The position numbers and the translations under genes are program-made. Positions 48,956-54,438 of a stretch of DNA of 64,000 nucleotides are shown piece by piece (within the stretch, counting starts at the first letter, position 1; the number at the start of each line of letters is the position of its first letter). Location of the stretch: positions 1-64,000 of the forward strand of contig CANRZW010000010.1 in assembly GCA_947644545.1 (NCBI GenBank). The letters are read 5' to 3'. The notes beneath the pieces were generated by a model, which saw only the letters and a program-made list of their open reading frames with translations, ran no database searches and had not been told where the DNA came from. Source of the stretch: an uncultured Lachnospiraceae bacterium. Its GTDB lineage: Bacteria; Bacillota; Clostridia; Lachnospirales; Lachnospiraceae.

Positions 48956-48984
48956 TTGACGCAGTCCGGGTCATATGATATTAT
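48956..48984 (+). promoter_or_regulatory. Sigma-A-type promoter
   Basis: TTGACG-N17-TATTAT. Confidence 0.7.
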
Positions 48985-48990
48985 GACACA

Positions 48991-49185
48991 GTCTTTTTTA
49001 TATAGTTAACGACATTGGAACTTTAGCTTTCGATCCTGCCAGAGCTTCCCTATATGGCTTTAGCAGGAACCGAAAGCAGAATGATACAAATAATCCGAAA
49101 CAGCCATTCCAGTATGGATTCTCTCCATGCTGGAATTTGTTGTAGCGGTCATGGCCGAAAAGCGGTCTATAGGGAGGGCAGGCAT
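48991..49185 (+). promoter_or_regulatory. Structured 5' leader, candidate cis-regulatory RNA
   Basis: Stem-loop 49026-49077 (GCTTTCG.TCCTGC/GCAGGA..CGAAAGC) and 49106-49136 (ATTCCAGTATGGA/TCCATGCTGGAAT). Confidence 0.5.
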
Positions 49186-51765
49186 ATGGATTATTCAGGT
49201 TATATGGTCGAACGGACCGATGAGGGAACGCCATACGTCGACGAGCACGAGCAGCAGGGCAGTATGAAGAGCGTCCAGAATCTGGAGTCCGTCATCAATG
49301 AGGGACTTCGCGTCGCTCTTCTGGAGGAGACGCCTGATCAGTCTCTGGAAGTGCTGTTAAATCATCTGGGAAAAGCGCTGAATGGGGAACGAACCTACAT
49401 ATTTGAGCAGAACGAATCCGGCTGCGACGACAATACCTACGAGTGGGTAGCCGACGGCGTAAGACCGGAAAAGGAAAATCTCCAGAACGTTCCTCCGGAG
49501 GTGTGTGCAAGCTGGTATCGGAATTTCAGCATCGGCAGACATATCGTCATTGAGAACGTAGAGGACATCCGTGAGACCGATCCGCTTCAATATGAGAATC
49601 TGAAACAGCAAAACATTCATTCTCTTGTGGTGGTTCCTCTTTATAACGGCAAAAAGATCATCGGCTTTTACGGCGTGGATAATCCTCCCGTAAAGTCACT
49701 GGAATACGCATCCAATATGCTCCAGACTGCAGCATACTTTATCGTATCCTCCCTGAAACGACGTAACCTGTTCCGTGAACTGCAAAAGCGAAGCTACAAT
49801 GTTCTCCATGCACTCAGTGTGGATTATCTTGGCATCTATCAGGTGAACTTCGATACAGGCGAATGCGAAGTCTACCGAAACAGTGAACAGACAGGTATGG
49901 ACTTTGCCGCCCATTTTGCGAACGGTTATCAGACCGCTATGGAACAGTATATTTCCGAGTACGTAGTATCCAGAGATCAGGAACGGCTCCGAACTGTAAC
50001 AAAAAAAGACTATGTGCTCACCCGGCTTAAAACAAATAAAAAGTTCTCTGTCCGCTACCAGGTAAAGGACAGTTCCTTCGGGCTCAAACATCTCGAATTT
50101 CATTTCTCAGCCACGACGTCCACATCCTCCTGTGCGATCTTTGCTCTGCGGGATGTCAATGCCGTAGTAGAGCAGGAAGAAAAGTACAAACTGGAGGCAA
50201 GACAGAGCCTGGAAGACATTCTGGAAGGGGCCAGAACCGGTATCTGGACGATCGAACTGGAGGAAGGCTGCCAGCCGAGAATGTATCCGGACCGGACCAT
50301 GCGAATTCTTCTAGGTGTATCGGAAGATATCGATCCCGAAGAGTGCTATCAACACTGGTTTGAAAATATCGAATCCGATTATGTGGAGATGGTACAGGAG
50401 GCCGTACAGGAAATATTGGAGAGCGGACGCTCCGAAGTAATCTATCCCTGGAATCATCCGACCCTTGGAAAAATATATGTCCGCTGCGGCGGCGTGCCGG
50501 ACAGAACCTTTAAGAAACCGGGTACCTGCCTGAACGGATACCATCAGGATATCACAGAAACCATGGTAACAAGGAAGAAACAGGAGCAGTCCATCATGGA
50601 GCTGCTGGAACGGGTGCGGCGGGCCAATTCGGCAAAAAGCGAATTTCTTTCCCATATGTCCCACGATCTTCGCACACCAATTAACGGGATTCTGGGTATG
50701 CTGGCCATCCTGGAAAAAAGCCAGGATGATCCGGAACGACAGAAAGACTGCCGAAACAAAATCCGTATATCAACACAGCATCTGCTTTCCCTGGTCAATG
50801 ACGTGCTTCAAGTCAGCAAGTTAGACAGCGGCGGTCTGGCGGAAGTAGCAGAACCCTTCGATCTGTATGACACTCTGGAAGACTGCATTACGGTCCTCTC
50901 TCCTCAGGCAGAAGAACAGGGCATCTGCCTGTCGCTGGATATGAGCGGCCTGCAACATGGCAGAGTGATCGGAAACCCGCTTCACCTGCAACAGATCCTG
51001 ATGAATGTAATAGATAATGCTCTCAAATACAATCGTCCTAACGGTTCCGTATTTGTGCAGGCTGCAGAGACCGCCTGCCAGAACGGAACTGCAAACTACC
51101 GTTTTGTGATCGAAGATACCGGGATCGGCATCGGCGAGGAATTTAAGGAACACATTTTTGAACCTTTTACCCAGGAGCATCAGACCGCCCGCACCCACTA
51201 CAACGGCGTCGGCGTCGGTATGTCCATCGTAAAGAAGCTGGTGGATCAGCTTAAGGGAACCGTTGAAATTAACAGCCAGCTCGGCAAGGGAAGCGTGGTC
51301 AGGATCAATCTCCCCCTCCGGATCGATGAAGCATGGTGCGAACCGACTGCAGACGAAGAACAGAATATACCTGGCAATGTCGCCGGGATGCATGTCCTTC
51401 TGGTGGAAGATAATGAAATCAACTGTGAGATTATACAATACATTCTTACGGATGCAGGCGCCGAAGTCATGACTGCAAACAATGGAAAGGCTGCCGTGGA
51501 CGCATTTACAGCCTCCGATCCGGGAGCTTTTGACTGCATCCTCATGGATTTGATGATGCCGGTCATGAGCGGATATGAAGCTGCCCGGGTAATCCGGAGC
51601 CTGAACAGGACGGATGCCAAAACCGTTCCCATCATAGCCTTGTCGGCAAACGCATTTGAAGAAGATATCGCACTGGCAAAAGACGCCGGGATGAATGAAC
51701 ATCTGGCGAAACCGGTAGACATCCCCCGAATGCTCAGGGTCATGAGGCGCCTTACCGCTCAGTGA
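49186..51765 (+). CDS. Hybrid sensor histidine kinase/response regulator (GAF/PAS-HisKA-HATPase-REC)
   Basis: EFLSHMSHDLRTPINGILG; DTGIGIGEEF; DCILMDLMMPVMSGYEAARVIR. Confidence 0.92.
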   Translation: MDYSGYMVERTDEGTPYVDEHEQQGSMKSVQNLESVINEGLRVALLEETPDQSLEVLLNHLGKALNGERTYIFEQNESGCDDNTYEWVADGVRPEKENLQNVPPEVCASWYRNFSIGRHIVIENVEDIRETDPLQYENLKQQNIHSLVVVPLYNGKKIIGFYGVDNPPVKSLEYASNMLQTAAYFIVSSLKRRNLFRELQKRSYNVLHALSVDYLGIYQVNFDTGECEVYRNSEQTGMDFAAHFANGYQTAMEQYISEYVVSRDQERLRTVTKKDYVLTRLKTNKKFSVRYQVKDSSFGLKHLEFHFSATTSTSSCAIFALRDVNAVVEQEEKYKLEARQSLEDILEGARTGIWTIELEEGCQPRMYPDRTMRILLGVSEDIDPEECYQHWFENIESDYVEMVQEAVQEILESGRSEVIYPWNHPTLGKIYVRCGGVPDRTFKKPGTCLNGYHQDITETMVTRKKQEQSIMELLERVRRANSAKSEFLSHMSHDLRTPINGILGMLAILEKSQDDPERQKDCRNKIRISTQHLLSLVNDVLQVSKLDSGGLAEVAEPFDLYDTLEDCITVLSPQAEEQGICLSLDMSGLQHGRVIGNPLHLQQILMNVIDNALKYNRPNGSVFVQAAETACQNGTANYRFVIEDTGIGIGEEFKEHIFEPFTQEHQTARTHYNGVGVGMSIVKKLVDQLKGTVEINSQLGKGSVVRINLPLRIDEAWCEPTADEEQNIPGNVAGMHVLLVEDNEINCEIIQYILTDAGAEVMTANNGKAAVDAFTASDPGAFDCILMDLMMPVMSGYEAARVIRSLNRTDAKTVPIIALSANAFEEDIALAKDAGMNEHLAKPVDIPRMLRVMRRLTAQ

Positions 51766-51819
51766 TCACAGTCATGCGGCTCATTGCCCGTGAGAATAAA
51801 GTCTATAGAATGGAGATGA

Positions 51820-54438
51820 ATGAACATGAAAAACATGGCTCTGCCACGTTCTTTAAAAATCAGTATAGCAGTGATCATTTGCATCAATATTTTCGTGTTT
51901 TCGTTTCTGGGATTGTCCATTAACAATATGAGTGAGAACACAATCGAAAATATAGGCACTACTTATATGGACAGCATGAATGAACAGGTATCTTTGCATT
52001 TTGAAACAATCATCGATCTGCGCCTGACGATGGCGGAATCCATTGCACACATTGCAGTCGATAAAGAAACTTCCGGTTACGGTTCAAAAGACGAAATAGA
52101 ATACGGCGCAAAAGCAAGACATTTTCTATGTGCCGCCCTGTATTCGGCTGATGGCAATATTGAAATGATTTTCGGCGATCCCGTGAAACTTAACCACCCC
52201 GACTCCTTTTTGGAAAGTCTGATAAACGGGGATCGCAAAACAGCGTCCGGTATTGACGAAAGCGGAAACGATGTGATCCTGTTCGGCGTTCCCTGCGAAT
52301 ATCCCATGGCAGACGGAAATACCAGCCTTGCTATGGTCGTTGGCCTTTCTTCCCAATACATGGGGGAAGTTCTTTTCCTCGATTCAGATGAATCGCTGAG
52401 CTATTCCTATGTGATCCGCAAGGATGGCAGCTACGTTGTACGCAATGAAGACGGGCTCCACGAGAACTATTTTGACAGGCTTTACAGCATCTTTGAAGGA
52501 CAAAATGAGGAAGCAGAGTCTTATATCAGCCAAATGACAGATGCCATGAATGCAGGTAAAGATTATTCCGTGATACTGCAAAGCGGCGAGTCACGCCGTC
52601 ATCTGTATTGTACCAACCTTCCCTATTGTGACTGGTATCTGGTAACGGTGCTTCCTTTTGACGGGCTTGATCATGCGATCTTAAGTATGAGCAGGCATTG
52701 GCTAGTCATCGTTTATGCCGCTTTACTGGCAGCGATCGCCATGCTCCTCTACATCTTCTTTCAGTATTTAAAAGTGTTCAAAAACCAGGTGGCTGAATTA
52801 AAGTGTATGAATACAGAGATGTCCGCGGCAAAGCAGGCAGCGGAAAAAGCAAGAAAAGAAGCAGAACAGGCCAATGCAGCAAAACAGGAATTTCTCTCCA
52901 GTATGAGCCACGACATCCGCACTCCCATGAACGCCATAATCGGTATGACGTCTCTGGCTGCGTCCAATATCCATAATCCGGAACAGATTCAGGAATACCT
53001 GCGCAAGATCGCAGTATCCAGTAATCATCTGCTGGGACTGATCAATGACGTGCTGGATATTTCCAAGATCGAAAGCGGCAAAATGACGCTGAATGTGGGA
53101 CAAATGTCACTGCGGGAAGCAATAGACAGCATCGTCAATATCATGCTCCCTCAGGTTAAGGCCAAAAACCAGCAGTTTGATGCGGCTGCATACGAAATCC
53201 TTTCGGAAAATGTTTGCTGCGACAGTGTACGGCTGAATCAGGTACTGATTAACCTATTGGGAAATGCCGTCAAATTCACACCGGAAAACGGCTCAGTTCA
53301 ACTTACCGTATATCAGGAGGCATTGCCGGAGGATACTTCCTGTGTCCGCACTCACTTCTTAGTGCGTGATACCGGCATCGGTATGTCAGAAGAGTACCAA
53401 AAGCAAATATTTGACTCCTTTAGCAGAGAGGACAATACCCGCGTACAGAAAACAGAAGGCTCCGGATTGGGAATGGCTATTACCAAATATATTGTCGACG
53501 CCATGGGCGGTCACATTTCCGTTCACAGCAAGCAGGGAGCAGGCAGTGAATTCCACGTGATTCTCGACCTGGCAAAAGCGCCGGCACAGAAGATCGATGC
53601 GCCGCTTCCCGGCTGGCATGTCCTTGTCGTTGACCGCGATGAGCGGTTATGCAGCAGTGCGGTCCGTTCCTTAGACGCAATCGGTATTTACGCCGACTGG
53701 TGTTCCGGCTTAGAACAGGCAATGGAACTGATCACCAAACGTCGGCGCCTCAGTGACGATTACCAAATGCTGCTTCTTGGCTGGGAATTGTCAGATAATA
53801 ACGGCATCGAAGCTGCCCGGGCAATCCGCTTGGCTTTCGGGGAAGACGGCCCGGCTTTATTGCTTGCGGCCTGCGACTGGAGTGAAATCGAAGAAGAAGC
53901 CAGAACGGCCGGTATTTCCGGGTTCCTCTCCAAACCGCTGTTTACCTCCGTTTTGTATGATGCCCTGAAAGTATATGCCGACACCGCTGCCGAAATGGCC
54001 GTCGATGACGACCAAACCGCCTGCACCGAAAGAACGGTCGACCTGGCGCTGCAGGGAAAACATATTTTACTGGCAGAAGATAACGAGCTTAACTGGGAAG
54101 TGGCAAACGGACTGCTTTCCTCTCTTGCAATGGACTTGGATTGGGTTGAAAACGGGCAGATCTGCGTGGAAAAATTCACCAACTCCCCCGTCGGATATTA
54201 TGACGCGATCCTTATGGATGTACGAATGCCCGTGATGGACGGCTACGAAGCGACAAAGGCCATCCGGCGTCTGCAGCGCGCAGACGCACAGCTTCCCATT
54301 ATTGCCATGACCGCCGATGCTTTTTCGGAAGATATCCAAAAGTGTTTAGATTGCGGCATGAACGACCATTTGGCAAAGCCGATCGATATACAGGACGTGA
54401 CCTTCAAATTGAAAAAATATATTCATCTCAATCTTTGA
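51820..54438 (+). CDS. Hybrid sensor histidine kinase (TM sensor-HisKA-HATPase-pseudoREC-REC)
   Basis: TM segments; EFLSSMSHDIRTPMNAIIGM; two receiver-like domains. Confidence 0.92.
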   Translation: MNMKNMALPRSLKISIAVIICINIFVFSFLGLSINNMSENTIENIGTTYMDSMNEQVSLHFETIIDLRLTMAESIAHIAVDKETSGYGSKDEIEYGAKARHFLCAALYSADGNIEMIFGDPVKLNHPDSFLESLINGDRKTASGIDESGNDVILFGVPCEYPMADGNTSLAMVVGLSSQYMGEVLFLDSDESLSYSYVIRKDGSYVVRNEDGLHENYFDRLYSIFEGQNEEAESYISQMTDAMNAGKDYSVILQSGESRRHLYCTNLPYCDWYLVTVLPFDGLDHAILSMSRHWLVIVYAALLAAIAMLLYIFFQYLKVFKNQVAELKCMNTEMSAAKQAAEKARKEAEQANAAKQEFLSSMSHDIRTPMNAIIGMTSLAASNIHNPEQIQEYLRKIAVSSNHLLGLINDVLDISKIESGKMTLNVGQMSLREAIDSIVNIMLPQVKAKNQQFDAAAYEILSENVCCDSVRLNQVLINLLGNAVKFTPENGSVQLTVYQEALPEDTSCVRTHFLVRDTGIGMSEEYQKQIFDSFSREDNTRVQKTEGSGLGMAITKYIVDAMGGHISVHSKQGAGSEFHVILDLAKAPAQKIDAPLPGWHVLVVDRDERLCSSAVRSLDAIGIYADWCSGLEQAMELITKRRRLSDDYQMLLLGWELSDNNGIEAARAIRLAFGEDGPALLLAACDWSEIEEEARTAGISGFLSKPLFTSVLYDALKVYADTAAEMAVDDDQTACTERTVDLALQGKHILLAEDNELNWEVANGLLSSLAMDLDWVENGQICVEKFTNSPVGYYDAILMDVRMPVMDGYEATKAIRRLQRADAQLPIIAMTADAFSEDIQKCLDCGMNDHLAKPIDIQDVTFKLKKYIHLNL

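Follow-up and report, generated by a model that had tools for sequence, protein, structure and literature searches.

A hybrid histidine kinase leader in a Lachnospiraceae bacterium contains the remains of a TA-targeting MITE beside weakly conserved native hairpins

Does the long and strongly folded leader of a hybrid histidine kinase gene in an uncultured Lachnospiraceae bacterium represent a new cis-regulatory RNA? The question was raised by a preliminary description of the window, by which we mean the whole 64,000-nt stretch of DNA analysed here. The parts of the locus that frame it are the following.

48956 to 48984, forward strand: kinase promoter, seen in the sequence and kept in homologues.
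48991 to 49185, forward strand: predicted 5' leader of the kinase mRNA, placed by the promoter position and the conserved start codon.
49172 to 49178, forward strand: Shine-Dalgarno GGGAGGG, seen in the sequence, with GGAGG conserved.
49186 to 51765, forward strand: hybrid histidine kinase HK1, 859 aa, with GAF, HisKA, HATPase and receiver domains.

The promoter proposed in the preliminary description is present as TTGACG (48956-48961), a 17-nt spacer and TATTAT (48979-48984), with TGATATTAT as the extended -10. Its pattern occurs only once in its own genome, and most kinase homologues have a similar promoter in front. The leader that follows is about 195 nt long and ends at the start codon ATG 49186, also as first proposed; most homologues start with ATG-GATTAT or similar downstream of GGAGG, which supports this choice. 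A longer version of the open reading frame begins in frame with the kinase at 49054 (extra segment 49054-49185), inside the first loop as had been noted, and this ATG belongs to the loop of a dispersed MITE described below. Automatic annotation from 49054 could therefore wrongly extend the kinase by 44 residues.

Conservation of the promoter region reaches well past the -35 and -10 boxes (48956-48996): homologues from several families of gut Clostridia share the spacer GTGATTGGGGGCATATGG and the initial transcribed bases GACACAG, among matches picked with a promoter pattern in which most spacer positions are free. This extended conservation suggests that an operator is present or that the promoter has a special architecture. 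HK1 itself is the sole match of its kind in the genome at E <= 1e-100. A second hybrid kinase, HK2, lies downstream (49186-54438 spans both). Of 84 homologous loci, 40 have an HK2 homologue that starts 29-137 nt after HK1, measured from match to match; at the thresholds used, none was found in the other loci within the up to about 3 kb of DNA covered.

The minimum-energy fold of the leader has -72.2 kcal/mol and z = -5.12, none of 200 shuffles being equally stable, and it contains both of the strong stem-loops of the preliminary description. A known riboswitch or other Rfam leader was rejected because no curated covariance model matched: no family reached its gathering threshold, in agreement with the earlier failure to recognise a riboswitch signature, and under relaxed thresholds the best matches were at chance level (snR8, other strand, E = 0.08). 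An intrinsic terminator was likewise rejected, since the sequence has no U-tract after any hairpin, as the preliminary description had stated.

The origin of the first stem-loop emerges from a DNA search with the leader in the source genome and 76 congeners. Many partial matches were obtained, and the significant ones mostly cover a stretch of about 80 nt from near 49001. The segment 49001-49082 recurs at unrelated loci in the genus with up to 85% identity and, once aligned, copies at other sites exceed the window copy in length and carry inverted repeats at their ends. By these alignments, 49001-49082 is a dispersed repeat, the remains of a MITE.

49001 to 49082, forward strand: truncated MITE, which keeps an internal palindrome, the left terminal repeat and the TA target at 49001-49002 but has no right terminal repeat.
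49026 to 49077, forward strand: stem-loop 1, the internal palindrome of the MITE, from the fold and the alignment of copies.

The element proper starts at 49003 in the window copy, which is decayed and stops at about 49082. Folded separately, the MITE part of the window leader has z = -4.5 and the native 3' part z = -3.1.

Elsewhere in the genus, full copies consist of 99 nt plus a duplicated TA, with terminal repeats TAGTTAACGACAT and ATGTCGTTTACTA and ends TATAGTTAACGACAT...ATGTCGTTTACTATA. Measured end to end with the outer TAs, 56 cases have the modal length of 103 nt and 8 have 102 nt, counts in which some loci overlap and a few copies are possibly counted twice. The consensus folds as one long hairpin. 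Of 77 congeneric genomes, 33 contain the end pattern, one of them with as many as 132 end matches, and a reversed-pattern control gave zero matches. Copies are unevenly spread, G043, G052, G062 and G063 having 43-132 end matches each and most congeners none. For one sibling copy in the source genome (G000:C2), the corresponding empty site is present at G063:C26, where the joined flanks are 97% identical over 440 nt and the junction carries a single TA. Because of this single TA, the element can be delimited to 99 nt and is seen to duplicate its target. The comparison shows precise insertion for this sibling copy, on which the target-site duplication is established, the window copy having lost its right end. 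The family thus has several properties of bacterial MITEs: it is short, non-coding and multi-copy, with terminal inverted repeats, a target-site duplication and an empty site.

No element of 150-3500 nt with MITE ends, as expected of an autonomous partner, was present among the retrieved loci, and an IS630-type transposase (PF13358) was absent in 8 of 9 genomes searched. The exception, the MITE-bearing congener G076, has two IS630-type (PF13358) transposase genes (G076:C100:654-1106 and G076:C105:2155-2601), which are possible partner candidates. As the transposase was not found, we assign the element no further than a TA-targeting MITE. A search of plasmids and phages gave no match, and a literature search on MITEs of Lachnospiraceae or gut Clostridia returned nothing relevant. 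In other bacteria, the RUP (Repeat Unit of Pneumococcus) is a 107-bp MITE of Streptococcus pneumoniae (PMC2229807, PMC3049150). On the basis of published descriptions rather than aligned sequences, both are roughly 100 nt long, have terminal inverted repeats, insert at TA, fold into a long hairpin and reach about 100 copies in certain genomes (PMC2229807, PMC3049150). They differ in host and in the IS630-Spn1 partner proposed for RUP, as opposed to the absence of PF13358 from 8 of the 9 genomes searched here.

Orthologous leaders allow the history of the insertion to be read. The closest long-leader kinase orthologues, those of G052 (leader L119; kinase 88% identical) and G063 (L118, with the same sequence as L039), align to the window on both sides of 49001-49082 and lack the MITE, holding about 30-40 nt in its place. 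Many more distant homologues have a small hairpin at this position, P1, formed by TTTTTGCGGC and the complementary stretch after it. We infer an insertion followed by loss of the MITE right end and of P1, the right-end deletion being drawn from the two close orthologues only. In the preliminary description, both hairpins of the leader could jointly form one new regulatory RNA, a proposal with the strong joint fold (z = -5.1) in its favour. As a conserved element this RNA is refuted, stem-loop 1 being a dispersed MITE that is absent from the orthologous leaders; the only form it could still take is that of a strain-specific composite, and we regard it as highly improbable.

We then have to ask what the native part of the leader represents. 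Besides P1, which the window has probably lost, it comprises two hairpins.

49100 to 49143, forward strand: P2, a native leader hairpin made of stem-loop 2 and 5 outer pairs (ACAGC/GTTGT and ATTCCAGTATGGA/TCCATGCTGGAAT), from fold and alignment.
49153 to 49167, forward strand: P3, the hairpin GGCCG-AAAAG-CGGTC just 5' of the ribosome-binding site, from the alignment.

P2 and P3 can be aligned across 26 long leaders, and with the structure held fixed 74.4% of cells are paired, as opposed to 32-50% with the partners slid. Because simple shuffles ignore relatedness, two tree-aware tests were run. An R-scape-like G-test against simulated alignments gave no significant pair, the best being columns 111-138 (E = 0.056). 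The second test counted compensatory cells on the sequence-only alignment, under a tree-aware, column-preserving null in which the inferred substitutions of each column are redistributed over the tree: 50 were observed, compared with 22.1 +/- 5.7 expected (0/300 null replicates). This excess is concentrated in P1 and inner P2, and P3 contributes nothing to it. Under the tree-aware null, the share of cells that pair is not unusual (33/300 as high). Ten held-out leaders, whose alignment was fitted to the model, point in the same direction, and RNAalifold alone, run on the sequence alignment, recovered only P1, with almost no energy. The covariation check suggested at the outset therefore has a divided outcome, a summed excess in P1 and P2 and no single significant pair. 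We take this as moderate evidence, short of proof, for selected pairing in P1 and P2; the strength of the compensatory signal makes some function of the RNA shape possible.

Of 549 kinase relatives found, 80 were retrieved, and the distribution of the native hairpins was traced among homologues. P2 is present in 30 of 67 homologues and missing from the other 37. Parsimony on the kinase tree requires about 16 gains or losses to explain this pattern, and well-supported branches make at least 4 of these unavoidable. The label P2 denotes a covariance-search match of about 53 bits or more (L116 was added as a near-copy of L117), and since it follows match quality a few rows are debatable. In the leader L038:2850-3000 (kinase 84% identical) a different hairpin, ATCTGCC...GGCAGAT, replaces P2; the leader may thus be a replacement hot spot. 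Over 25 homologous leaders the mean folding z is -1.42, just slightly above shuffled stability; the adjacent downstream coding sequence has -0.91. The covariance model of the leader has one strong match per genome, preceding the kinase wherever inspected. Strong matches occur in 5 of 77 genus genomes, and 6 of 397 genomes in a family sample, source genome included, pass E <= 1e-8; genome-wide, the matches outside kinase leaders are weak and chance-like. A literature search on such a leader RNA found nothing relevant.

These results bear on a second alternative, in which P1, P2 and P3 constitute a genuine new cis-regulatory RNA acting in translation control through a ligand or protein, with the MITE as a late arrival that disturbs it in a single strain. 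The compensatory excess in P1 and inner P2, the pairing far above the slid controls, the held-out leaders and the constant tie to the kinase would all fit such an RNA. Set against them are the lack of individually significant pairs, a paired percentage no higher than in the tree-aware null, the absence of P2 from more than half of the homologues, the weak folding z and an RNAalifold consensus structure of almost nil. On balance we find this reading unlikely. What stands of the preliminary claim of a new cis-regulatory RNA is that the leader is structured, lies outside Rfam and has a kinase-specific 3' half (P2, P3) with some compensatory change; the claim of one RNA built from two strong stem-loops does not survive the MITE origin of the first, the patchy occurrence of the second, the lack of a terminator U-tract and the near-ordinary stability of homologous leaders. 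Since stem-loop 1 is a MITE remnant and many relatives lack P2, we see no convincing new riboswitch here.

The insertion may nevertheless have consequences for translation in this strain, as the start of the leader is predicted to pair with the ribosome-binding region.

48991 to 49002, forward strand: tract predicted, from folding only, to pair with 49168-49179 (the Shine-Dalgarno region).

The 3' end of this tract falls within the first few bases of the MITE insertion, and its pairing with the Shine-Dalgarno region is predicted to be full. The computed probability that the Shine-Dalgarno is unpaired is 0.00 in the window, compared with 0.73 in L119, an orthologue free of the MITE, and 0.44 in L039, and opening it in the window would cost a predicted 7.3 kcal/mol. 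The masking helix is rich in G-U pairs and confined to one strain; against shuffles of the same tract, the duplex energy gives p = 0.05. A conserved anti-Shine-Dalgarno tract at the leader 5' end was rejected, the tracts of 46 leaders performing no better than shuffled ones. Masking by the MITE end may thus occur as a strain-specific effect predicted by the folding model, with no conserved mechanism behind it. Full pairing predicted in the window only could also mean that this lineage has recruited the MITE to damp translation of the kinase. With a single strain, a decayed MITE copy, a G-U-rich helix and no anti-Shine-Dalgarno trend in other leaders, such recruitment appears distinctly improbable.

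We therefore favour, with a probability of roughly 0.8, a composite leader in which a MITE was inserted into an ordinary, fast-evolving 5' UTR, the native hairpins being passive and the Shine-Dalgarno perhaps masked. The starting point was an older, HK1-specific 5' UTR with the small hairpins P1, P2 and P3 beside the ribosome-binding site. Comparison with other leaders shows that a MITE of about 100 nt entered at a TA about 10 nt past the predicted transcription start, and the orthologue alignment suggests that its right end was then lost with some 30-40 nt of original leader, including P1. The leftover palindrome forms stem-loop 1 and accounts for a large share of the exceptional folding energy. 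The older hairpins are most probably passive 5' UTR structure that influences ribosome loading and the stability of the mRNA, and not a ligand-sensing riboswitch. Finally, the T-run and the first MITE bases, paired with the Shine-Dalgarno, are predicted to lower translation of the kinase in this strain.

Similar arrangements have been described elsewhere. In the pneumococcal trp leader, a BOX element lies between two T-box riboswitches (PMC3049150); it resembles our composite leader in placing a MITE-like repeat within a structured 5' UTR (PMC3049150), with the difference that its flanks are known riboswitches and ours are weakly conserved hairpins. Correia/NEMIS and ERIC elements are likewise co-transcribed MITE hairpins, and there they affect mRNA processing or stability (PMC2229807). 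They are other elements in other hosts.

Our analysis tells apart two look-alikes in a single sequence, the strong hairpin of a mobile repeat and a native leader of weak conservation, and it cautions that folding energy by itself (z = -5) can make MITEs look like candidate riboswitches. It adds a 99-nt TA-targeting MITE family, abundant in certain gut Lachnospiraceae, for which our searches turned up no description. The locus provides a natural case of a MITE landing between a promoter and a ribosome-binding site. Should P1, P2 and P3, as we consider rather unlikely, be a real undescribed cis-regulatory RNA of one hybrid kinase family of gut Clostridia, the MITE would have rewired it here, replacing P1 and masking the ribosome-binding site.
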